Assembly (NCBI GenBank): GCA_903824045.1
Contig: CAIJVD010000001.1
Span: forward strand, 1 to 60,659
DNA length: 60,659 nt
Source of the DNA: an uncultured Chlorobiaceae bacterium
GTDB lineage: Bacteria; Bacteroidota; Chlorobiia; Chlorobiales; Chlorobiaceae
Reading direction: 5' to 3'
Shown piece after piece: positions 7,001-42,692 of the stretch (position 1 is its first letter; each line of letters starts with the position of its first letter). The position numbers were made by a program, and so were the translations under genes. Under the pieces are notes generated by a model. It saw nothing but the letters and a program-made list of their open reading frames with translations, did not search any database and was not told the DNA's origin.

Positions 7001-7650
7001 GATATAATGCTGTAATTTTCGACCTGGACGGGACGCTCCTCGACACGCTTCAGGATATTGCCACCACCCTCAACACCGTTCTTGCCCGCCACGCTTACCC
7101 CATCCATACGCTCGACGAGTGCCGTATGCTGGTCGGCAGGGGCATGAAGGAACTGGTCAGGACGGCCATTCCCCAAAATGCACAGTCACCGAAGAACATC
7201 GAGATGCTGCTCGGTGAGCTCATGGAACACTACGCAGACAACTGGAATGTTCATACCCGCGCCTACCCCGGCATCAGCACGCTGCTCGACGCCATACAGG
7301 AAAGGGGAATAAAATCGGCCATTCTCTCCAACAAGGCCGATCGGTTCACCCGGCTCTGCGCCGAGTTTCAGCTCTCGGGGTGGAAGTTCAATGTCGTCAT
7401 GGGTCAGCAGAGCCCCATACCGCCCAAGCCGGATCCGGAAGGCGCGCTGCTGGTTGCCCGAAAGCTCGACCTGAACCCTTCGGAGATTCTCTATGTCGGG
7501 GACAGCGGCATCGACATGGAGACGGCAACAAGGGCTGGAATGTTCCCGCTCGGCGTCCTCTGGGGGTTTCGACCGGAGAGCGAACTGCTCGAATTCGGGG
7601 CAAAGGCGGTGGTCAGACGGCCCGAGGAGATTATCGACATGCTCGGCTGA
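6997..7650 (+). CDS. gph: HAD hydrolase, phosphoglycolate phosphatase-like
   Basis: 217 residues. HAD motif I is FDLDGTLLDT at the N-terminus, motif II is AILSNKADR, and motif IV is VGDSGIDMETATRAG. The four-helix cap (VGRGMKELVRTAI) lies between motifs I and II, as in the Gph/PGP branch of class IA HADs. Such enzymes dephosphorylate 2-phosphoglycolate or related sugar phosphates. The start overlaps the methyltransferase stop by 4 bp. The substrate is inferred from subfamily resemblance only. Confidence 0.85.
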   Translation: MRYNAVIFDLDGTLLDTLQDIATTLNTVLARHAYPIHTLDECRMLVGRGMKELVRTAIPQNAQSPKNIEMLLGELMEHYADNWNVHTRAYPGISTLLDAIQERGIKSAILSNKADRFTRLCAEFQLSGWKFNVVMGQQSPIPPKPDPEGALLVARKLDLNPSEILYVGDSGIDMETATRAGMFPLGVLWGFRPESELLEFGAKAVVRRPEEIIDMLG

Positions 7651-7670
7651 GAGCGCGAGGTCAGAATGGT

Positions 7671-8744
7671 TCAGGCTAGGAGATGAAGGCGTGAAAAAAC
7701 GTAGTCGAGGGAGTCCTCGTTGAGCACTATACGCGAAAAACCGGTCGCACCCAGCTCCAGCGGACGGTTGTCCCTGGAACTCATGAACTTGCGACTCTGC
7801 TTGCCGTTATACCAGTAAACAAGCCTGATCTTGCTCCCCTCGATCTCGATACAGGTAATGCCCCGCTTCCCGATTGCACAGCCGGAGTTGAAGACGCTCG
7901 GAATGGTAATATTGTTGTAGAGACCGCTGCGCAGTCCTATTCTCTTGCCTTTTGTGTAACAGGCGTCAAGCTCAATCTTTAAGGCACCGATTTTCCTCTT
8001 GATCTCTGAGCGCCGCTCTGTTTCGGCAAGAGGATAGGCACGACAGAGCTCCTCGATCCTGAAGTTCAGAAAATCCACTTTTGAGAGCGATTCAAAGAGC
8101 GGGCGGTGGGTATGGCCGATGATGGAGACTATTTTAGCCAGATTCGAGAACTCATAGATCGACTTCTCAATAGCGAAACGGCGCCGGCTGTTGTAGGCGC
8201 TCGAAAAATTCCTGATGCCGACGGGCTTGGCGATGTAGCGGAGAAAAAGAACGACTGCACGACTGACGGCCGGATAGCTCTCCCACAGCAGCACCGAAGC
8301 CTGGTGGCCGTGAAAAAGGAGCATCGTCTCCTCGCCGTACTGAAATTTAAGGGACTCGAGCATCGATGAGGCGAGCGGATAGTTCTTCTCTTCAAGCAGC
8401 TCGGCATCATGGTTCCCGTAGGTCTTCCAGAAAAAACCGTTCTTGCGGAAGCGGAGAAAGAGTTCGTAAAGCTCTCCCCACTGGGAAACCACACTCTCAA
8501 TGGGAAACTTCAGCAGCTCCTCAACATCACCATTGAGCACCATGCTGTACTTTTCAGGCAGATAGTAGTCGGCCAGCATTGTCTTCAACAGCTCGGCGTT
8601 CCGCTTGAACTCATCACGCCGGCCGCCATTGCCCATGTGCAGGTCGCTGACAATGAGCACCCTTGAAGAGTCGTCAATCCTCACCGGCTTTGCGGTTTTC
8701 AGCAGGCGGTCAAGCTGGGGATGTTTTCTGGTATGAAGCCTCAT
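7671..8744 (-). CDS. Calcineurin-like metallophosphoesterase
   Basis: 357 residues from the ATG at 8744, placed 11 nt after a strong GGAGGTGA. The longer GTG start at 8759 would overlap that ribosome site. Dinuclear metal-binding motifs are all present: VSDLHMGNG (D-x-H), NGDVEEL (GDxx), YGNHDAE (GNHD), FHGHQ and IGHTHRP (GHTH). The region between the last motifs contains several basic residues. The fold resembles UDP-2,3-diacylglucosamine hydrolases and larger uncharacterised phosphoesterases. No signal peptide is seen. It is convergent with the HAD phosphatase gene. Confidence 0.85.
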   Translation of the reverse strand: MRLHTRKHPQLDRLLKTAKPVRIDDSSRVLIVSDLHMGNGGRRDEFKRNAELLKTMLADYYLPEKYSMVLNGDVEELLKFPIESVVSQWGELYELFLRFRKNGFFWKTYGNHDAELLEEKNYPLASSMLESLKFQYGEETMLLFHGHQASVLLWESYPAVSRAVVLFLRYIAKPVGIRNFSSAYNSRRRFAIEKSIYEFSNLAKIVSIIGHTHRPLFESLSKVDFLNFRIEELCRAYPLAETERRSEIKRKIGALKIELDACYTKGKRIGLRSGLYNNITIPSVFNSGCAIGKRGITCIEIEGSKIRLVYWYNGKQSRKFMSSRDNRPLELGATGFSRIVLNEDSLDYVFSRLHLLA

Positions 8745-33647: not shown

Positions 33648-33677
33648 TTGGGAGACTCCGGCTCCCGGTGTTATATT
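33648..33677 (+). promoter_or_regulatory. Candidate metal-responsive promoter of the copper operon
   Basis: TTGGGA (33648-33653) and TATATT (33672-33677) have -35/-10 character with an 18-bp spacer. A dyad, GGGAG (33650-33654) and CTCCC (33662-33666), overlaps the -35 and lies in the spacer, an arrangement like MerR/CueR-type promoters. It is 34 bp upstream of the HMA-SafE start. No MerR gene is nearby, so the regulator is unknown. Confidence 0.4.
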
Positions 33678-33710: not shown

Positions 33711-35087
33711 ATGAACAAACGATATACCTATAGCGTAGAAGGGATGCATTGCGCCTCCTGTGAAGCAATCGTCGAAGAGAGGCTTCTGGAGTCCGGGCGC
33801 TTTAGTAAGGCCGAGGCCTCGATGGCTGATGGCACGGTAAGCATCGAGTGTGAAGGCGTAAAACCGAAGGCCCTGGAGCTGAACCGCCTCTTTGAAAGCG
33901 GCGCCTATACCTTTTCCGAGAGCAGTACCGCTCACCGCAGCACCCCAAAGGAGCTGCTGAAGGCGGCGGCCATTGCATCAGCCATCATCATCCTGATTGC
34001 CGGACTCTCCTCTTCCGGCCTGCTTCCAAACGTCGCCATAGAGAGTGCCAGCTCCCTTTCGGCGTTCTTCCTTTTCGGACTTCTTGGCGGCATATCGAGC
34101 TGCGCCGCGCTTGTCAGCGGCATAGTACTCTCGCTCTCCTCCCGCTGGATGGAACAGCATGGAGAGAAAAGTTCCTCGCTTGAAAGAGTGAAACCCCATC
34201 TCTTTTTCAATCTGGGCCGCATTGCCATCTACTCCCTCGCCGGCCTCTCCTTCGGCCTTCTGGGCAGGACAATCAGCCTTTCGCCGGCGGTAACCACCAT
34301 AATGATTGTCATGGTCTCCGCCCTGATGATTGTCCTGGCGCTTCAGATGCTTGGCGTGGAGTTCTTCAACCGCTTCAGGATTGCGCTGCCGAAAAAACTC
34401 GCACTGAAATCCCTTGCCGGCAGCAAGAGGTCAGGCTCCGTTCACCCTCTGACGACAGGGATGCTGACCATTCTGCTCCCCTGCGGCTTCACCATGGCTG
34501 TGGAAGGAGTTGCCATACTCTCAGGCAGTCCGTTGCGGGGCATGCAGGTCATGCTCGCGTTCGTTCTCGGCAGCACCCTCCCACTCCTGGCTATAAGCCT
34601 TTCAAGCCTGAAGCTTTCTGGCAAAGCGAAAAGCAGCGCACTCTATCAGCAGTGCGCCGGGCTCATCATCATTGTTTTTTCGATCTATACGCTTAACGAG
34701 ACACTCAACCCAGCCGGTCATCTCGCAGCGTTGGACTCCGGCCACTCTGCAGCATCGGATACCGCGTTTGCCGCACTCACCCCAGGTTCTGTGAGCACCC
34801 CTGCTGCGTCAAACACAGCCACACTGAAAACCGTCTATACCCTTCAGAACGACATCGTGCCCTCAACCTTCGAGGCCAAGGTCGGCAACAAAGTCCGCCT
34901 CGTGGTGGACTCTCGCGATAACGGCACCGGATGCATGAGCACCATCATGATTCCCGGCCTCTGGGAGAAACCTCTTCTCCTGGAAAAAGGAAAGACCCTT
35001 GTTATGGAGTTCACCCCGACCAAGCCGGGGCCCTATAAAATCACCTGTGCCATGGGCGTGCCCCGCGGAGTGATCAACGTCAAGTAA
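33711..35087 (+). CDS. HMA - SafE/DsbD-like membrane - cupredoxin-like fusion protein
   Basis: 458 residues with three parts. First, an HMA metal-binding domain (about 1-65) carries the Cys pair GMHCASCEA. Then comes a SafE/TauE-like or DsbD-like membrane block (about 85-350) of six or more helices, including ISSCAALVSGIVLS and TILLPCGFTMAVEG, where the Cys-containing LPCG resembles the redox/metal helices of that family. Last is a C-terminal cupredoxin-like beta domain (about 370-458) with late Cys, Met and Pro residues (NGTGCMSTIMIPG, ITCAMGVPRG). Similar fusions occur with copper export genes. DUF305 and copA follow at 22 bp and at a 4-bp overlap, so one copper operon is likely. Its direction of action is not proven. 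Confidence 0.82.
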   Translation: MNKRYTYSVEGMHCASCEAIVEERLLESGRFSKAEASMADGTVSIECEGVKPKALELNRLFESGAYTFSESSTAHRSTPKELLKAAAIASAIIILIAGLSSSGLLPNVAIESASSLSAFFLFGLLGGISSCAALVSGIVLSLSSRWMEQHGEKSSSLERVKPHLFFNLGRIAIYSLAGLSFGLLGRTISLSPAVTTIMIVMVSALMIVLALQMLGVEFFNRFRIALPKKLALKSLAGSKRSGSVHPLTTGMLTILLPCGFTMAVEGVAILSGSPLRGMQVMLAFVLGSTLPLLAISLSSLKLSGKAKSSALYQQCAGLIIIVFSIYTLNETLNPAGHLAALDSGHSAASDTAFAALTPGSVSTPAASNTATLKTVYTLQNDIVPSTFEAKVGNKVRLVVDSRDNGTGCMSTIMIPGLWEKPLLLEKGKTLVMEFTPTKPGPYKITCAMGVPRGVINVK

Positions 35088-35109
35088 TCAAACACCACCC
35101 TGTAACCTC

Positions 35110-35691
35110 ATGCAGAAAATCTCGCTCTCGCTCGCCGTATCACTGGCAATCGTCATGCTGGTGGCCGGCATTGGCGTCGGATACTGGCTGACCCCGCAGT
35201 ACTCGCTCTCGATGTACGACAAAAACACCATGGACCTTGGCCAGCCCGACAAGTGGGTCGACCTGCGCTACATCGACGGCATGATTGCCCATCACCGTGG
35301 CGCCATTCTGCTTGCTGAGGAGGCCGCGCTCTCCGAAAGGGCCGAAATCAAAAGCCTTGGCGCCGATATACGCAAAAACGAACCTGTCGCCATCGCGGAG
35401 CTCTACCAGATGAAAAAGGAGTGGTACGGCGATCGGAGAACAGTGCGCGACCCCCAGGTACCGAAGCTCGGCAGTTACGACAAGAGCTTCGACCTCCGCT
35501 TTCTCAACGCCCTTATTGCCCATCATGAAAACGGCATCCGCATGACCCGCGACATCCGCCTCAAGTCGAGCCGAGCCGAAATCATCGACAATTCGGACGC
35601 CGTTGAACAGTTCCTCAAAGGGGGAATTGCAATGCTCAGGGGCTGGAGAAAAGCATGGTATAACGTTATCGATCCGAGCCCCAGCCTATGA
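35110..35691 (+). CDS. DUF305 family exported or membrane-anchored protein
   Basis: 193 residues. An N-terminal hydrophobic segment (SLAVSLAIVMLVAGIGVGYWL) is a signal or anchor. The DUF305 domain has two His-pair motifs: DGMIAHHRGAILLAEEA near 57-73 and NALIAHHENGIRMTRDI near 137-153. The ferritin-like helical fold and paired His, Met and Glu residues suggest metal binding. DUF305 proteins often occur with copper-resistance genes. Here the gene lies between the HMA-SafE fusion and copA, overlapping copA by 4 bp, which supports a role in periplasmic copper handling. Confidence 0.85.
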   Translation: MQKISLSLAVSLAIVMLVAGIGVGYWLTPQYSLSMYDKNTMDLGQPDKWVDLRYIDGMIAHHRGAILLAEEAALSERAEIKSLGADIRKNEPVAIAELYQMKKEWYGDRRTVRDPQVPKLGSYDKSFDLRFLNALIAHHENGIRMTRDIRLKSSRAEIIDNSDAVEQFLKGGIAMLRGWRKAWYNVIDPSPSL

Positions 35692-37964
35692 CGACGAGAA
35701 GCTACACGGTCAAGGGGATGCACTGCGCAAGCTGCGCGGCGGTCATCACCAAAAAGCTCTCCCTTGTGGAGGGCATAAAACAGGTTGATGTCAACCTTGC
35801 AACCGAAAAGGCAAAGATTGAGTTTGACGGCAGCGCAATCGGTGCCGAGATGCTCAACGAGGTTGTCGCGAAATACGGTTACGGGCTTGCGGCCGAAGAG
35901 AGCACTGTGAGTGCCACCTCGCCTTCAATCACCGCCGCATCGGCTTCCGCAAAGCTGAAAGAGGAAAAACAGCGGGAGCTAGACGAACAGCTTTCGAAAG
36001 TGCAGTTTGCCCTTCCCGTTGCCATGCTCGTCTTCCTGCTGATGATGTGGGATATCGGGTCGCGGCTCTTCAGCTGGATGCCGAACCTCCCCATTCCCAT
36101 GGAGCTCTTCAACATCATCTCCATGGTTCTCGGCACCTGGATGGTCTTCCGCATCGGCGCCCCCTTCCTGCACGGCATCACCATGTTCATCCGGAGCGGT
36201 GCGGCGAGCATGGATACCCTTATCGGCATCGGTACACTCACCGCCTACACCTACAGCGCCATCGTGACGCTCATTCCCTCGGTTCGCCAGCTGCTGCGCC
36301 TCCCCGACTACACCTACTTCGACGTCACCATCGTCGTCATCGGCTTCGTCCTTCTCGGCAAGTACCTTGAGGCCCGCTCGAAGCTGAAAACCGGCGAGGC
36401 CATTGAAAAGCTGATCGGCCTGCAGGCAAAATTCGCACTGGTGCTGCGAGGCGGGCTTGAGGTCGAGATCCCTATCGAACAGGTTGTCAAGGGGGACTTC
36501 ATCATCATCAAACCGGGCGCCAAACTGCCGGTCGACGGCACCATCATCGAAGGCTTCTCATCAATCGACGAGTCGATGGTGACGGGAGAGCCCGTGCCGG
36601 CGGACAGGAAGCCGGGCGACACGGTGATTGGCGGCACCATCAACAAGCAGGGCTCATTCACCTTCAAGGCCTCCAACGTCGGGGCCGACACGCTCCTTGC
36701 CCGCATCATCCGCATGGTCGAGGATGCCCAAGGCTCGAAAGCGCCGATTCAGGCAATCGCAGACAGGATTGCCGGGGTCTTTGTTCCGGCAGTGCTGGTT
36801 CTTGCTGCTGCCACCTTCATCATCTGGCTGACGGTCGGTTACTCGTTCCTCGGCTTTTCCCTTGCGCTCTCCTACGGCATCATGGGGCTTGTCGGCATTC
36901 TGGTGATCGCCTGCCCCTGCGCGCTTGGCCTGGCCACGCCGACGGCAATCATTGTGGGCATCGGCAAGGGCGCCGAATACGGCATTCTCATCCGCAACGC
37001 CGAAAGCCTTGAAAAGCTCAGCACCGTCGACACCGTGGTGTTCGATAAAACAGGAACCATCACCGTCGGCACGCCAAGGGTCACCGACATAGAGCTTCTT
37101 GGTGAGGGCAAAACCGTGGAGGATATTCTGCAGATTGCCGCAAGCATAGAGAGCCGCTCAGAGCATCCGCTGGCCAACTCGATTGTCGAGGTGGCAGAGG
37201 AGCGAAAGCTTGCGCTTCTTGAGGTCACCGGGTTCGTCGCGCTGGAAGGGATGGGTGTCGCCGGAGTAATCGGCACGACTCCCGTAAAGGTCCGCAAGCC
37301 TTCTGAAAGCGAAAAAGGGAATGCAAAGGTTAACGCGCTGCAGGAAGAGGGGAAAACGGTCGTCATGCTTGAAGAGAACGGCATCGCTGTGGGCCTGATT
37401 GCCCTCAGCGATACCGTCAAGAGTGAGGCAAAAAGCGCTGTAGCCGCGCTCCACAAAAAGGGACTCAAGGTCATCATGCTGACCGGTGACAACCGTTCCG
37501 CAGCAAACTACATGGCCCGACAGGTCGGCATCGACGAGGTTATCGCCGAAGTGCTCCCCCACGAGAAGGCGGAGAAGATCAGGGAGCTCCAGAAGCAGGG
37601 ACGAAAAGTTGCCATGACCGGAGACGGCATCAACGACGCACCGGCCCTCGCTCAAGCCGAGGTCGGCATCGCCATGGCCACAGGAACCGACGTCGCCATT
37701 GAATCGGCCGGCATCACCATCCTCAACGGCGACATCAGCAAAGTCGCCCAGGCATTCACCCTCTCCCGCGCAACCATGCGGGTCATCCGCCAGAACCTCT
37801 TCTGGGCCTTCATCTACAACATCATCGGCATCCCGCTCGCCGCCGGGGCACTCTACCCCCTCTTCGGCATCTTCCTCAACCCGGTATTCTCAGGCCTCGC
37901 CATGGCCGGAAGCAGCGTCTCGGTAGTAAGCAACTCGCTCCGATTGAAAACCAGAAAGCTTTAG
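35688..37964 (+). CDS. copA: Copper-exporting P1B-type ATPase
   Basis: 758 residues. One N-terminal HMA domain has GMHCASCAAV. A His-free linker leads to the membrane helices with the transmembrane metal site CPCALGLATP (CPC). The actuator loop is MVTGEPVP, the phosphorylation site is FDKTGTITVG, the nucleotide-domain HP motif is SEHPLANS, and the hinge is MTGDGINDAPALAQAE. These features identify the Cu(I)-type subgroup. Length is normal for single-HMA CopA. The ATG overlaps the DUF305 stop, so translation is coupled. Metal specificity is inferred from the CPC motif and operon. Confidence 0.95.
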   Translation: MTTRSYTVKGMHCASCAAVITKKLSLVEGIKQVDVNLATEKAKIEFDGSAIGAEMLNEVVAKYGYGLAAEESTVSATSPSITAASASAKLKEEKQRELDEQLSKVQFALPVAMLVFLLMMWDIGSRLFSWMPNLPIPMELFNIISMVLGTWMVFRIGAPFLHGITMFIRSGAASMDTLIGIGTLTAYTYSAIVTLIPSVRQLLRLPDYTYFDVTIVVIGFVLLGKYLEARSKLKTGEAIEKLIGLQAKFALVLRGGLEVEIPIEQVVKGDFIIIKPGAKLPVDGTIIEGFSSIDESMVTGEPVPADRKPGDTVIGGTINKQGSFTFKASNVGADTLLARIIRMVEDAQGSKAPIQAIADRIAGVFVPAVLVLAAATFIIWLTVGYSFLGFSLALSYGIMGLVGILVIACPCALGLATPTAIIVGIGKGAEYGILIRNAESLEKLSTVDTVVFDKTGTITVGTPRVTDIELLGEGKTVEDILQIAASIESRSEHPLANSIVEVAEERKLALLEVTGFVALEGMGVAGVIGTTPVKVRKPSESEKGNAKVNALQEEGKTVVMLEENGIAVGLIALSDTVKSEAKSAVAALHKKGLKVIMLTGDNRSAANYMARQVGIDEVIAEVLPHEKAEKIRELQKQGRKVAMTGDGINDAPALAQAEVGIAMATGTDVAIESAGITILNGDISKVAQAFTLSRATMRVIRQNLFWAFIYNIIGIPLAAGALYPLFGIFLNPVFSGLAMAGSSVSVVSNSLRLKTRKL

Positions 37965-38003: not shown

Positions 38004-39086
38004 CTAATGCGAATGCGAAGGATCGCTACCAACAAGGAACGAGCGCACAACCAGAACCGTGAGCAGCGCCGAGGCGGCAATCGAGAGTACACCGGCCTCC
38101 TCAGGGGCGCTCACGCTCACCCAGTGCCGGATATCGAAGCCAAGCCAACCGTAGAGCGCATTGATGAGCAGGCCGCCAAGCAGCGACATGACGACGATGA
38201 CACCCAGATAGACCAGCGTCGAGCGCTTGCCAAGCATCCGCGAGATGACCGTCAGCGAGGCCACGTTGGTGGCGGGGCCGGCAAGCAAAAAGACGAGCGC
38301 AGCACCGGGAGAGAGCCCCTTGAGCGCAAGGGCTGCAGCCACAGGGGTTGAAGCGGTGGCGCAGACATAGAGCGGGCCCGAGGCCACCAGCATCACCAGC
38401 ATTGAAAGGAAATCGTTCGAAGCGACCGCTGAAACCATCTCCTGCGATACAAATATCGATATCAGCCCCGCAAGAAGAATTCCGAAAAAGAGCCAGCCAC
38501 CCACATCCTTCAGAAGCTCCCCGAAGGCAAAATGCATGCCCTCTTTGAACTTCCCGATGGCACCGAGCTTCGCCGGCTTATGGTGACTGCAACTGCAAGA
38601 AGATGCACAGCCGCCACCTTCGGACAGCAGCTCGCCAGCTGCCACCGATGCACTGTCGCCATTGCGCTCCGACCATGACACAGCAAGGCCAGCCGCCATA
38701 GCCGTCAAAATCCCGGCCAGCGGCCGAAAAACGGTCATCAGCGGATCGAGCAGAGCGTAGGTGACAGCAATGGAATCCACCCCTGTTTCTGGCGTTGAGA
38801 TAAGGAACGAAGCGACTGCCCCATTTCCTGCACCCTGCTTCTTCAGACCGGCCGCTGCAGGAACCACCCCGCAGCTGCAGAGTGGCACCGGGATACCGAG
38901 CGCCGCCGCCTTGAAAATGCTTTTGATTCCACTCCCGCCCAGGTGCGTGGAGATAAAATCATCCGGCACATAGGCCTTGAGCAGACCGGCAACAAAAAAA
39001 CCGAGCAGGGCCAGTGGGGCCGACTCAAGCAGCACATCCCAACATGCCAGAAGGATACGGGTTAAAACAGCAACAATCTCATGCAT
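38004..39086 (-). CDS. SO_0444-type metal efflux permease (DUF318/ArsP-like)
   Basis: 360 residues with about eight to ten membrane helices. The family core is ALGIPVPLCSCGVVPAAAGLKKQGAGNGA, containing the CxCG motif near residue 70, and the matching second half CATASTPVAAALALKGLSPG with PATNVASLTVISRMLG. A central soluble loop (about 155-175) is rich in Cys and His (CASSCSCSHHK), a likely metal site. Members are annotated as Cu/Zn efflux transporters or organoarsenical permeases. The upstream ArsR-family gene and operator-like site support metal-regulated export. The metal itself is not determined. Confidence 0.87.
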   Translation of the reverse strand: MHEIVAVLTRILLACWDVLLESAPLALLGFFVAGLLKAYVPDDFISTHLGGSGIKSIFKAAALGIPVPLCSCGVVPAAAGLKKQGAGNGAVASFLISTPETGVDSIAVTYALLDPLMTVFRPLAGILTAMAAGLAVSWSERNGDSASVAAGELLSEGGGCASSCSCSHHKPAKLGAIGKFKEGMHFAFGELLKDVGGWLFFGILLAGLISIFVSQEMVSAVASNDFLSMLVMLVASGPLYVCATASTPVAAALALKGLSPGAALVFLLAGPATNVASLTVISRMLGKRSTLVYLGVIVVMSLLGGLLINALYGWLGFDIRHWVSVSAPEEAGVLSIAASALLTVLVVRSFLVGSDPSHSH

Positions 39087-39158: not shown

Positions 39159-39524
39159 CTACTTCCCCTCAACCACATGCTCGGAACCAAGCTGAATAAG
39201 ACCTGAAACATGGCTGTCGTCGAGGCTGTAGAGCACCTTCTTCCCCATCTTTACCGATTTAACGATCTTGGCATCCCGAAGCACGCGAAGCTGATGCGAA
39301 ACCGCCGACTGATTCATCCCGAGAATCGAGGTCAGATCGCAAACGCAAAGTTCACTCTGGTAGAGTGCGTTCAGGATTCGAATGCGAGTATGGTCACCCA
39401 GCACCTTGAACAGCTGCGCCAGATCCTGCTGCAGCGGCTCCCCCGGCATCTGACCGCGGACACGAGCAACCACATCGGGCCGGAAACACTCCTCACGGCA
39501 AAGCTCTTGATTCTCTTCATCCAT
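39159..39524 (-). CDS. ArsR/SmtB-family metal-sensing repressor
   Basis: 121 residues from the ATG at 39524, 8 nt after AGGA. The winged helix-turn-helix has LFKVLGDHTRIRILNAL, the metal-site helix ELCVCDLTSILG with the CVC pair typical of alpha3N/alpha3 sensors, the recognition helix MNQSAVSHQLRVL and the wing KMGKKVLYSLDD. Additional N-terminal Cys (ELCREECF) may complete an alpha3N site, as in CadC/AztR-like sensors for soft metals. It should repress itself and the permease until metal binds. TGA-N8-TCA dyads precede both genes. Confidence 0.9.
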   Translation of the reverse strand: MDEENQELCREECFRPDVVARVRGQMPGEPLQQDLAQLFKVLGDHTRIRILNALYQSELCVCDLTSILGMNQSAVSHQLRVLRDAKIVKSVKMGKKVLYSLDDSHVSGLIQLGSEHVVEGK

Positions 39525-39538
39525 AATCGTCATCCTGA

Positions 39539-39560
39539 TATATGAGCACCCATTCATATA
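39539..39560. promoter_or_regulatory. ArsR/SmtB operator-like dyad in front of the arsR gene
   Basis: TATATGA (39539-39545) and TCATATA (39554-39560) are perfect 7-bp inverted arms with an 8-bp spacer, giving TGA-N8-TCA. It lies 15 bp upstream of the arsR start, as expected for autoregulation by the encoded repressor. Confidence 0.65.
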
Positions 39561-39719: not shown

Positions 39720-40463
39720 TCACTCAGTGGTAATGTCGGCCATAAAGGCGTAGCCGACGGCGTGAGCTGTTTGGATGGGTGAGGTGATGGCATGAGCTTT
39801 TATCTTCTCCCGCAGACGGTTAATGAGCGCCTGCAACGAATGATTCCCGGATTCCGTATCGAAGTATCCAAGCTTATTCAACAGTTCCTGTCGTGTCACG
39901 ACTGCGCTGGGGACGGAAGCAAGCCGCACCATCAGGTCAAGCTCTTTGGGGGTAAGTTTGATACGATCGCCCTCGGGGGTCTGAAGGGTCCATTGCGTGC
40001 TGTGGAGTTTCCACCTTTCAGATGGTTGTGGCGAGCGCGTTTCGGCGGCGGGAGGTGGAGGCACGGGAGTGTCGGCAAGGCGACTGAGCAGCGTTGCTAT
40101 GGAAGCCGAAAGCCGTCGAAAGTCGACCGGTTTGACAAGATAGATATCAGCACCTGCCCGGTGACCTGCAAGCTGGTCATCAAGAGTGACATGGGCGGTA
40201 AGCATGATGATGCGCATATTGGTGTTCTTCCGAACGTATTCGGAAAGGACCAAACCGTTCTGATCGGGCAGACCAACGTCAAGAATGGCAACATCATAGT
40301 GCTCCGAATAAATCTGTTTATAGAACTCATGGGCTGTACCCGCCCCGGTGACTTCGTATCCGTCAAGGGTAAGGTATTTTACAGCGCTTTTGAGCAGCGG
40401 CAGGTCATCTTCAACAATGATTATCCTGCCCTTACTGCTGCCATGTGGGATATCCTGTAGCAT
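39720..40463 (-). CDS. OmpR-type DNA-binding response regulator
   Basis: 247 residues. The receiver domain starts at IIIVEDDLPLL and has the phospho-acceptor Asp in VAILDVGLPDQNG, the Thr in LTAHVT and the Lys in YLVKPVD. After a Pro-rich linker, the winged-helix domain has KLTPKELDLMVRLAS and a final beta-hairpin (AHAVGYAF). It controls transcription when phosphorylated, presumably by the 7TMR-DISM kinase encoded 56 bp upstream on the same strand. Targets are unknown; the adjacent metal genes are candidates. Confidence 0.9.
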   Translation of the reverse strand: MLQDIPHGSSKGRIIIVEDDLPLLKSAVKYLTLDGYEVTGAGTAHEFYKQIYSEHYDVAILDVGLPDQNGLVLSEYVRKNTNMRIIMLTAHVTLDDQLAGHRAGADIYLVKPVDFRRLSASIATLLSRLADTPVPPPPAAETRSPQPSERWKLHSTQWTLQTPEGDRIKLTPKELDLMVRLASVPSAVVTRQELLNKLGYFDTESGNHSLQALINRLREKIKAHAITSPIQTAHAVGYAFMADITTE

Positions 40464-40519
40464 AATCGAATAAGAATTGTTCTGAGTAGTGAATTACGCG
40501 GTGGTTATCATGCTCACAG

Positions 40520-42556
40520 CTACTCTGCGAGGGGCAGGCATACTGTCGCAATAATGAACGGGCTCTTGCTATGGAGCCACACCCTGCCGTTATGCTGCCC
40601 GATGATTTGCCGGACAAGCCAAAGTCCAACACCGGCGCCTCCTTTATCGCTGCAGTTCTTGCCTCGAGTGTATTTATCAAAAAGCTCTTCAGCATCTTCC
40701 CTCTTGATGGGATCAGCGTGATTTTTAATCGTGATGACGACTTCTCCCCCTTCAATATGGCTTTCGACATCAACGGGTGTGCCGGGTAAAGCGTATTTGC
40801 GAGCATTGTCCAGGAGGTTGAACAAAGCTGTTTTGAGCGTATTGGAGTCCCCGACAACGGGCTGGAGTTCGGACGCCTCAGTATAGGCAAAGGCTTGAAG
40901 AGGCCACATTGCCCGCATGAGTTCAACCTTTGAAGAGAGAAAAGGTTCCATCGCCATACGCTCCATCCCGCCTTGTATGCCAGGCTCTGAGAGGCGGCTG
41001 CGTTCCAGGGAGACATCCATGACCTCTACCAGCCGGTCAACAGCATGATGCATGGCGGTAAGCTCTTCCTCATGTCCGCATTTTATTCTGGCTTCCTGAA
41101 TATCAATGATGTCGAGGTTGGCGCTGATAACGGCAAGGGGGGTACGATATTCGTGAGATAACATGGAGAGAAATCGGTGCTGGAGTTCGAGCGACTGCCG
41201 TTCAGAAGCGAGCACCACTTCCAGCTCTGTCTTGCTGTTGCGAAGTTCAAGCGTCATATCATTGGCAAGTGCAACTGCCTTTCGCTCAGTATCTTTGGCT
41301 GCCTCGAGCTCTCGCTGGGCAAGATTGATAAGCACTTTTTCAGACATCCTGATCCGCTCCGAGAGCGCTACGGATATGAGGGTCATGTGAACCAGCGAAG
41401 TAAACTGCAGCGTATTCATATCCCATAAAAAGCCCAGCGGCAACACGCCCATAAGACGCAGAAGCATATGAAAATAACCCAAAGAACTAACACCAAAGGC
41501 GATCACAATAAAGACTCCTGTTCCGGGCAGATGGCGAAGCATCCTGTGGCTCAACACCATCTGGATGACCACCAGAGTTAACATGCCGATAAAAGCAAGC
41601 TGTGCAACAAACGGATAGAACCCCAAAGGGACTGCTGCGATAGTCAAAAATCCCAGCAGCGACAAAAAGCGCATGTAACGAAGGCTCCATTTACCAGCAA
41701 CCGCAATAAAAAGCTTGCGGGAGAACTCGCTGTAAACAAGAATATTGGCACCGATTCCCCCGTAGATAAGGTAATCGGAGAGCCTGTGCACCATTGATGG
41801 GAACAGAAGGGTCAAAGATCCCTCGGCGGCAAAATTAAACACTATTCCCGCAAGCAGGTAGAGCGAGTAATAACCGAACAGGGAGTCGCGGACGGAGATA
41901 TAAAAAATCAGGTTTATGATAAGGAGCGTAAGCATAACTCCGAGAAAGGCCGACTGCATGATGACATGGCGGTTGGTAGCATCACGCAGGTCGTCAGCAG
42001 TGTGCATCTGCCCCGCAAAGCTGATTGAGCTATGAGAGAAGACCCTCGCATAGATGACCATTGGCTTGGACGCCGGCATATCGATCGGGACGACAAAGTC
42101 CGGATTGAGCACGGGACGCTGAAGAGCCGGAAGATGGTTGCCGAGAAGCACTGTACGGTAGGAAGAGGCGAGCGCAGGATCCTTGCCGGGGATCTGGATA
42201 TAGAGCGTCAGCTCATTGATGTAGTTCGGCTTGAGGCGGAGCCATCCCGTTTCAGGGAAAGAGGCGTTCCGTTCAACAGTGAATCGAACCCAGCAGGCTT
42301 CACGCTTATAGCCGTTATTGAGGTTCCCCTCAAGCTGTCGGAATCGACCAGACTCCCCCGCTTTCAGGATGTCAGCAAACCCCAGCCTGAGGGATGGATC
42401 CTTAAGCACCTCCATATGCCCCGTCAGCTCATACGAGCTCCGCTCACCAAGCATAAGCGGCGTAGCCCATCCCCGTGATGAAACAAGAAGAAAAAGCAGG
42501 ATAACGATGCCGCCAAAAAGTCGACGCAAAATAATGTAGGGGGAACGACTATGCAT
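40520..42556 (-). CDS. 7TMR-DISM sensor histidine kinase
   Basis: 678 residues from the ATG at 42556, which places a signal peptide (LFGGIVILLFLLVSSRGWA) at the start; a longer frame to 42595 exists. The periplasmic 7TMR-DISM extracellular domain (about 40-185) is followed by seven hydrophobic helices (about 195-395), a short coiled coil, HisKA with the phospho-acceptor His in FLSMLSHEYRTPLAV, and an ATPase domain ending GGAGVGLWLVRQIIGQH. The receptor class senses small ligands, often carbohydrates, through its outer domain. The response regulator gene follows 56 bp downstream. The signal is unknown. Confidence 0.9.
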   Translation of the reverse strand: MHSRSPYIILRRLFGGIVILLFLLVSSRGWATPLMLGERSSYELTGHMEVLKDPSLRLGFADILKAGESGRFRQLEGNLNNGYKREACWVRFTVERNASFPETGWLRLKPNYINELTLYIQIPGKDPALASSYRTVLLGNHLPALQRPVLNPDFVVPIDMPASKPMVIYARVFSHSSISFAGQMHTADDLRDATNRHVIMQSAFLGVMLTLLIINLIFYISVRDSLFGYYSLYLLAGIVFNFAAEGSLTLLFPSMVHRLSDYLIYGGIGANILVYSEFSRKLFIAVAGKWSLRYMRFLSLLGFLTIAAVPLGFYPFVAQLAFIGMLTLVVIQMVLSHRMLRHLPGTGVFIVIAFGVSSLGYFHMLLRLMGVLPLGFLWDMNTLQFTSLVHMTLISVALSERIRMSEKVLINLAQRELEAAKDTERKAVALANDMTLELRNSKTELEVVLASERQSLELQHRFLSMLSHEYRTPLAVISANLDIIDIQEARIKCGHEEELTAMHHAVDRLVEVMDVSLERSRLSEPGIQGGMERMAMEPFLSSKVELMRAMWPLQAFAYTEASELQPVVGDSNTLKTALFNLLDNARKYALPGTPVDVESHIEGGEVVITIKNHADPIKREDAEELFDKYTRGKNCSDKGGAGVGLWLVRQIIGQHNGRVWLHSKSPFIIATVCLPLAE

Positions 42557-42692
42557 AATTGGCGGAAATATATCCAAAGAGGACGTTAGTGGCAAATGTG
42601 CACTATAGGATGTCCCCTAACCGACCTGTCGGGAGATGGCGGAATGGGGGGCTCGCTCGGTTCCAGGAGCTTCATCCATGGCTTGCAGGATT

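Follow-up and report, generated by a model that had tools for sequence, protein, structure and literature searches.

The question raised by positions 33711-37964 of contig CAIJVD010000001.1 is what passes through a membrane protein that joins an HMA metal-binding domain, a DsbD_2 membrane core and a cupredoxin tail, and that is encoded in one operon with a copper pump. The window, which is the whole stretch of DNA analysed, comprises 60,659 nucleotides of an uncultured Chlorobiaceae bacterium (assembly GCA_903824045.1). Calling of open reading frames (ORFs) gives three consecutive plus-strand ORFs in this region, encoding the fusion protein, a DUF305 protein and the P-type ATPase CopA; the 22 bp gap between the first two and the 4 bp overlap between the last two are those described in the original prediction, which had been made from the sequence alone. 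The reading that we favour, with a probability put just short of even, is a copper-detoxification unit around CopA, in which the fusion would act as a transmembrane Cys/Met relay that passes Cu(I) to an external CupA-like acceptor. Computation established the domain order, the predicted topology, the conservation of ligand residues and the coupling of the HMA domain, core and cupredoxin to CopA and DUF305. The positions of all features are collected in Table 1.

Pfam finds three domains in the fusion above its gathering cut-offs: DsbD_2 (E 1e-29, residues 118-326), Cupredoxin_1 (E 8.8e-8, residues 362-455) and, barely over the cut-off (25.2 against 24.8 bits), HMA (E 2.1e-5, residues 6-51). 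No thioredoxin-like domain was found in the protein by Pfam. The AlphaFold2 model, with a mean predicted local distance difference test (pLDDT) of 82 and a predicted template-modelling score (pTM) of 0.72, shows a single helix ahead of the core and six helices within it. Pfam and the model thus bear out the order of CxxC head, SafE/DsbD-like core and cupredoxin tail in the original prediction, and its placing of the head in the cytoplasm and of the tail in a periplasmic-type location agrees with the predicted topology, in which the HMA domain lies inside and the tail outside. The loop charges are of the N-in/C-out type in 45/45 fusion sequences, with a mean of 14.6 Lys and Arg in about 79 inside-loop residues as against 3.2 in about 59 outside-loop residues. 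Since stand-alone homologues of the tail carry signal-like N-terminal leaders (17/17, from 21 regions searched and judged by eye, some of the leaders being seen only from an inner start), and since the loop charges agree, the tail appears to act outside the cytoplasm. The alignments for the structure work were A3 (the window and 44 of 47 candidate loci, L064, L081 and L086 being omitted for length) and A4 (the window and 63 of 78 candidate loci).

Residue conservation was followed in an alignment of 98 rows, which stand for 94 distinct loci and are limited to ORFs with both an HMA and a core match; L091 and L120, where these are in different ORFs, lie outside it. C14, C17, C131 and C258 are invariant, and the only Cys, Met or His columns of the core that are conserved in more than 80% of the rows are C131, M206, C258 and M281. 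The conservation of C14/C17, and that of C446/M448 in the tail, is partly a selection effect, since the patterns of the locus search included the HMA CxxC and the tail motif; the core residues were not part of these patterns. An alignment of the core with E. coli DsbD by hhalign (E 2.2e-5, probability 76%) places C131 on C182 and C258 on C304, which we take to be the redox-active cysteines within the membrane, numbered C163 and C285 in the mature protein. DsbD carries F and L where the fusion has Met206 and Met281. Both core cysteines are also kept by three paralogues from relatives (L018, L019 and L020), presumably COG2836-like to judge from their motifs; these have I, V and V at position 206 and M, L and L at 281, a small control (n=3) with L018 and L020 alike. 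In a further alignment of seven rows (A5), which includes Streptomyces, Deinococcus, Chlorohelix and Acetoanaerobium, C131, M206, C258, M281, C408, C446 and M448 are all kept. With DsbD and CcdA, then, the fusion shares the Pfam DsbD_2 domain, a predicted six-helix core and two intramembrane cysteines at matching positions; unlike them, it has no thioredoxin-like domain, carries an HMA domain inside and a cupredoxin outside, and has two added core methionines. Its score against the curated NCBIfam DsbD subfamily PRK00293.1 is 18.4 bits, where the cut-off is 330.

Searched by itself against the PDB, the core had no Foldseek match with an E value of 0.001 or lower. The VIA rows begin with the sodium/iodide symporter (Z 8.9), followed by Rnf and Nqr subunits (8.1 and 7.6), and include CcdA (5vkv, Z 6.8, 189 aligned); these fold matches were left unused because the Z values are within the range that helical bundles reach by chance. 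Two relatives of the window genome (L019 and L020) have a DsbD_2-type protein with HC-x-MC and LPC motifs adjoining a P-type ATPase, and in L019 the gene is also near an apparent cytochrome bd subunit, identified by eye. The link between DsbD_2 proteins and metal ATPases, to judge from these two loci, may be wider than the fusion family.

By sequence profile (E 3.3e-13), by Foldseek and by VIA-align (Z 14.3, root-mean-square deviation 2.2, 96 aligned), the solved structure that best matches the tail is pneumococcal CupA; the N-terminal domain of pneumococcal CopA comes second by profile and VIA-align. C408 and C446 of the tail align with C74 and C111, the Cu(I)-site cysteines of CupA. Together with M448 these residues are present in 68/68 aligned rows that have a tail; L088, with an odd letter at column 408, has none. 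The original prediction would have fallen with a tail that lacks metal binding, and this finds no support in the conserved candidate ligands. At the positions of the S2 methionines of CupA, M113 and M115, the tail has M448 and a second residue that is Val in the window and Met in 49/68 rows. CupA is described as binding Cu(I) at C74/C111 and handing it to CopA (PMC5646241). The window tail resembles CupA of Streptococcus pneumoniae (copY-cupA-copA; PDB 4F2E and 2MRY) in its cupredoxin fold, both Cu-site cysteines, the first Met of CxMxM and the CopA beside it. It differs in being fused to an HMA domain and a DsbD-type core and in having Val for the second Met of CxMxM, and also in its predicted position: CupA is membrane-anchored on the cytosolic side and loads the cytosolic domain of CopA, whereas loop charges and stand-alone leaders place the tail outside the cytoplasm.

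The DUF305 protein is recognized by Pfam in two stretches (E 7.7e-16), and the two HH motifs previously noted are both present (IAHHRG and IAHHEN), the first in an MxxHH context. Its N-terminus has a hydrophobic segment with no clear cleavage site by eye. A profile comparison with CopM gives E 1.9e-14, and the score against the NCBIfam CopM equivalog, 41.9 bits, is under the cut-off of 90. CopM of Synechocystis sp. PCC 6803 is reported to be periplasmic with a high Cu(I) affinity, and its loss to raise copper sensitivity (PMC4335983); the MxxHH motif has been studied as a Cu(II) site (PMC11836926). The two proteins have in common the DUF305 repeats, MxxHH in the first copy, probable export and a copper operon, but the window protein is encoded with CopA and not with CopRS, and is below the CopM cut-off. 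A similar neighbourhood is found in the curA operon of Myxococcus xanthus, where Table 1 of PMC3707914 lists a protein with Cupredoxin_1 and, immediately ahead of copA, a gene for a DUF305 lipoprotein; that operon differs in its nine genes, among them those for a multicopper oxidase and a two-component system, and an HMA-DsbD_2 core is not in the table.

CopA has the Pfam domains HMA, E1-E2 ATPase and HAD hydrolase, and a CPC motif in its translation. It passes the copper-translocating ATPase model TIGR01511 (591 bits, cut-off 397) and stays under the cut-off of the NCBIfam CopA equivalog PRK10671.1 (619.9 against 1316 bits), which was presumably set for the E. coli type of CopA with two HMA domains. 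No other close copper ATPase turned up in the genome; what follows it in the search are partial matches to another P-type ATPase.

Among 86 Chlorobiaceae genomes the complete fusion is found in 19, and in one more (G367) it is cut by a contig end. The order fusion-DUF305-CopA holds in all 19 loci that are readable downstream; an assembly or annotation artefact was rejected, given these full-length homologues in the same order in 19 genomes. Phylogenetic profiling of the fusion with DUF305 and CopA, proposed in the original prediction as a check, gives DUF305 of the window type in 24 of the 86 genomes, namely in 19/20 with the fusion and 5/66 without it (odds ratio 232, p 1.4e-13 by a Fisher test that ignores genome relatedness and that counts G367 as fusion without DUF305, owing to the contig end, and G130, with a decayed fusion, as without fusion). 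In the five genomes where DUF305 occurs without the fusion, it still directly precedes CopA, and three of them have a separate cupredoxin gene upstream. Of 20 congener regions, four have the full fusion and DUF305, 13 a stand-alone cupredoxin and three CopA without either; DUF305 was found in none of the 16 regions without the fusion. Because of this co-occurrence and of the decay in G130, the fusion and DUF305 appear to be kept or lost together. The remnant in G130, a one-contig genome, lies between prfC and CopA (L166, positions 7100-8600) and has frameshifts and an internal deletion.

The idea that the fusion is unique to the Chlorobiaceae lineage was rejected, since a pattern search of genome contigs found relatives across phyla. 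At least 187 were confirmed, and the best 80 were kept (L041-L120; 4 Chlorobiaceae and 76 others). The relatives among the matches listed are mainly Patescibacteria, with single ones from Spirochaetes, Synergistaceae, Atribacteria, Anaerolineae, Actinobacteria and Woesearchaeota. Of the 76 loci outside Chlorobi, 68 have CopA no more than 4 kb away and 51 a CsoR-like gene no more than 3 kb away; an ArsR-like gene accompanies 5 and DUF305 accompanies 7, some missing neighbours being at contig ends (e.g. L084 and L107). The cupredoxin is fused in 46, separate within 2.5 kb in 30, present in either form in 70 and separate only in 24. The CsoR-like and separate-cupredoxin counts come from profiles built on the same loci, and the separate cupredoxins of L054, L059 and L066, where a fused tail is also present, look like other cupredoxin types. 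All 15 CsoR-like proteins tested match Pfam Trns_repr_metal above the cut-off, and all five separate cupredoxins tested match Cupredoxin_1, four above the cut-off and that of L108 just below. Since DUF305 is in only 7 of the 76 related loci elsewhere, it is an accessory of the Chlorobiaceae version, and the constant unit is HMA, core, cupredoxin and CopA. The coupling to both DUF305 and CopA that had been proposed holds within Chlorobiaceae; outside the family DUF305 is seldom part of it.

In a tree of 94 rows, from which the duplicate loci L023, L153, L154 and L156 (the same as L042, L043, L044 and L041) were left out, the 20 Chlorobi rows form one clade (100/99) among mostly Patescibacteria rows, and single Synergistaceae and Atribacteria rows seem to stand next to it (92/93). 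In a Candidatus Shapirobacteria locus (L070, 1184-5438), CsoR, fusion, DUF305 and CopA follow in a row, which is the window order plus CsoR. A recent transfer between Patescibacteria and Chlorobi was considered; the tree gives no direction for it, and L070, with the same gene order, is long-branched and not a sister of the Chlorobi clade. Another observation concerns L054 (6485-6964), where an ArsR-type helix-turn-helix domain joined to a YHS domain is encoded upstream of a Paceibacterota fusion.

The three parts of the fusion occur in three arrangements. In the first, found in Chlorobiaceae and others, HMA, core and cupredoxin are in one protein; in the second, an HMA-core protein is followed by a cupredoxin gene, whose product starts with a hydrophobic segment; in the third, a core-cupredoxin protein has an HMA gene just downstream. 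The third is found in Streptomyces sp. F12 pFRL6, Deinococcus sp. QL22 and Ca. Chlorohelix allophototropha, and in all three of these DsbD_2, Cupredoxin_1 and HMA are above the Pfam cut-offs. Acetoanaerobium noterae has a full fusion followed by a P-type ATPase, its cupredoxin scoring 24 bits, below the cut-off of 27. Because the same three parts recur either fused or split, they probably make up one functional unit, for which this recurrence is the strongest argument. The core-cupredoxin proteins of the Streptomyces, Deinococcus and Chlorohelix records are labelled 'sulfite exporter TauE/SafE family protein', and a sulfite exporter label is attached to 8 of 11 plasmid relatives; nothing in the domain content or the neighbourhood points to sulfite.

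In the copper relay that we favour, the cytosolic HMA domain would take up Cu(I), the intramembrane Cys131/Cys258 site, perhaps with Met206/Met281, would carry it across the membrane, and the external CupA-like tail would bind it at Cys408/Cys446/Met448. The CopM-like DUF305 protein, which is probably exported, would receive Cu(I) from the tail and buffer it as a sink, while CopA would pump in parallel with the relay, driven by ATP. The relay might also give copper to CopA inside and take copper over outside. We infer that Cu(I) is the moving species, and likewise its direction and the hand-over steps; copper is favoured over electrons because the head is an HMA domain and not a thioredoxin, because a Cu(I) acceptor is predicted outside, because CopA and CsoR-like genes form the context, and because a Met pair has been added to the Cys pair. 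In the MerT/MerP/NmerA mercury relay, HMA domains swap a soft metal with membrane-helix cysteines, as is proposed here, although that relay runs in the opposite direction and has a different membrane part from the fusion, so that it serves as an analogy only. A MerT-like system was considered as well and found no support beyond a match of the HMA domain to MerTP far below the cut-off. A broader proposal, which can be advanced only tentatively, is that a DsbD fold has been converted from an electron carrier to a Cu(I) conduit, in which an intramembrane Cys2Met2 site would join a cytosolic HMA domain to an external CupA-type acceptor; it would form a further export route besides P-type ATPases and resistance-nodulation-division (RND) pumps, spread over Patescibacteria, Chlorobiaceae and other phyla.

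Several points weigh against the copper relay. The nearest relatives of known function, DsbD and CcdA, carry electrons, and the parts of the literature examined hold no measurement of metal transport by a DsbD_2-type fusion core. Passive relaying of Cu(I) lacks a source of energy and might let copper leak inward. Met206 is missing from 8/98 rows and Met281 from 4/97, and their conservation may reflect plain hydrophobicity. Five of the CsoR-like proteins were compared with NCBIfam, and their matches to the copper sensor RicR lie far below the cut-off, so that copper sensing by them is only putative. In 12 of the 16 congener regions without the fusion, a stand-alone cupredoxin is encoded beside CopA, and G130, in which the fusion has decayed and DUF305 was not found, retains an intact CopA and the permease cassette described below. 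On the Deinococcus sp. QL22 plasmid (L185), merB and a regulator of the MerR type lie within a few kb of the core-cupredoxin and HMA pair, and it is possible that relatives of the fusion handle mercury or another soft metal.

Since the core is homologous to DsbD and keeps both of its intramembrane cysteines, a thiol or electron relay is a close rival, which we regard as possible rather than probable. Cytosolic reducing power would pass via Cys131-Cys258 to Cys408/Cys446 of the tail, which would then bind Cu(I) or reduce Cu(II) outside, all transport being left to CopA. The exact alignment of the core cysteines with those of E. coli DsbD, the Pfam DsbD_TM match of the Acetoanaerobium relative (E 3.2e-9), the lack of an energy source for passive copper movement and, with a Z value that is not decisive, CcdA among the VIA rows are all in keeping with this. 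CupA is described as reducing Cu(II) through C74/C111, the re-reductant of which is given as unknown (PMC5646241). The CopM paper connects Cu(I) binding in the oxidizing periplasm with a lack of cysteines (PMC4335983), so that an exported Cys-based site would need a reductant. However, a metal-binding HMA domain and not a thioredoxin accompanies the core, fused or adjacent, in the loci read, which is partly a selection effect; DsbD does not have the two conserved core methionines; and many congeners have exported stand-alone cupredoxins without any core. The computed data do not decide between copper and electrons. The domain order, predicted topology, coupling and conserved candidate ligands support the metal relay of the original prediction in part, and homology of the core to an electron carrier whose cysteines it keeps speaks against that relay.

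It is also conceivable, but unlikely, that the fusion is a two-ended partner of CopA, its HMA domain being a membrane-tethered CopZ that loads CopA inside, its tail taking Cu(I) at the exit of CopA, and its core being mainly an anchor. The closeness of CopA in most loci, the congener regions with a cupredoxin gene beside CopA and the existence of split forms would fit such a role. A plain anchor, on the other hand, needs no two cysteines that are invariant at the DsbD positions (98/98 rows), and the separate cupredoxins often have an N-terminal hydrophobic segment or leader of their own. That the system serves mainly mercury, silver or general thiol stress, with its copper context due to chance, is very improbable in view of the CsoR-like genes, the CupA-like tail and the Cu-type CopA in the operon, even with merB and MerR near the Deinococcus relative, an ArsR-type regulator and Cu/Zn permease adjoining the window operon, and CsoR-like proteins below the RicR cut-off.

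The original prediction saw here an incompletely described system, which is true of the function. In print, HMA and DsbD_2 had already been linked to a copper regulon: a 2016 paper assigns COG2836 proteins with HMA, DsbD_2 and DUF2318 to a CsoR regulon predicted for gut Firmicutes (PMC4938975). Those proteins are like the fusion in having HMA and DsbD_2 in one protein and a predicted copper regulation; they differ in having DUF2318 instead of a cupredoxin, and the account given there is a prediction that takes the mechanism no further than a chaperone-like role. Known domains, a known pump and a known operon class are thus present in a combination for which no functional description was found. 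No description of an HMA-DsbD_2-cupredoxin protein was seen in the titles and abstract starts of open-access papers, which is weak evidence since subscription journals are mostly outside this set. Searches of this open-access set likewise yielded nothing that joins the TauE sulfite exporter label with copper and cupredoxin, and nothing on Patescibacteria with copper, cupredoxin and a P-type ATPase. A testable function can now be proposed for a membrane family that is widespread and whose relatives on plasmids mostly bear a sulfite exporter annotation. CupA, which is described as restricted to a few streptococci (PMC5646241 and the review PMC7558416), has CupA-like domains as counterparts far beyond them, predicted on the outer side of the membrane. 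Should metal cross the core, a familiar fold for electron transfer would have turned into a conduit for copper; should it be electrons that move, the core might be the sort of reductant that is missing from CupA-type sites. Either outcome is relevant to bacterial copper homeostasis, and the split forms of Deinococcus and Streptomyces offer culturable hosts.

Table 1. Positions in the window of the copper operon, of domains and residues of the fusion protein, and of adjoining features
Feature	Position	Strand	Basis
Promoter-like site upstream of fusion, TTGGGA-18-TATATT, GGGAG/CTCCC dyad in spacer	33648..33677	+	Consensus match only
HMA - DsbD_2 core - CupA-like cupredoxin fusion, 458 aa	33711..35087	+	ORF call, Pfam, model
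HMA domain, residues 6-51, GMHCASC metal site (C14, C17), predicted cytosolic	33726..33863	+	Pfam
Extra predicted transmembrane helix before core, residues 79-101, places HMA inside	33945..34013	+	AlphaFold2 helix, loop charges, hydropathy peak
DsbD_2 core, six predicted transmembrane helices	34062..34688	+	Pfam, models, hhalign to E. coli DsbD
Cys131, beside break in core helix 1; aligns with DsbD Cys182 (precursor numbering)	34101..34103	+	98/98 rows
Met206, core helix 3	34326..34328	+	Met in 90/98 rows
Cys258, at break in core helix 4 (LPCG); aligns with DsbD Cys304 (precursor numbering)	34482..34484	+	98/98 rows
Met281, core helix 5	34551..34553	+	Met in 93/97 rows
Flexible Ala/Ser/Thr-rich linker, residues 335-366	34713..34808	+	pLDDT < 50
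CupA-like cupredoxin tail, residues 362-455; ligand candidates C408, C446, M448	34794..35075	+	Pfam, CupA match
DUF305 / CopM-like protein	35110..35691	+	ORF call, Pfam; N-terminal hydrophobic segment, two HH motifs
CopA, Cu(I)-type P1B ATPase	35688..37964	+	ORF call, Pfam, NCBIfam
SO_0444-family Cu/Zn efflux permease	38004..39086	-	NCBIfam, 408.6 bits against equivalog cut-off 300
ArsR/SmtB-family regulator	39159..39557	-	Pfam, NCBIfam

No motif common to all stretches upstream of the fusion was seen by eye, and the window has no Rfam match at the gathering threshold and no tRNA. The permease and the ArsR-type regulator form a metal cassette convergent with the copper operon, which was absent from the original prediction. 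Directly beyond the ArsR gene, Pfam identifies an OmpR-type response regulator and a 7TMR-DISM histidine kinase on the minus strand (39723-42595).

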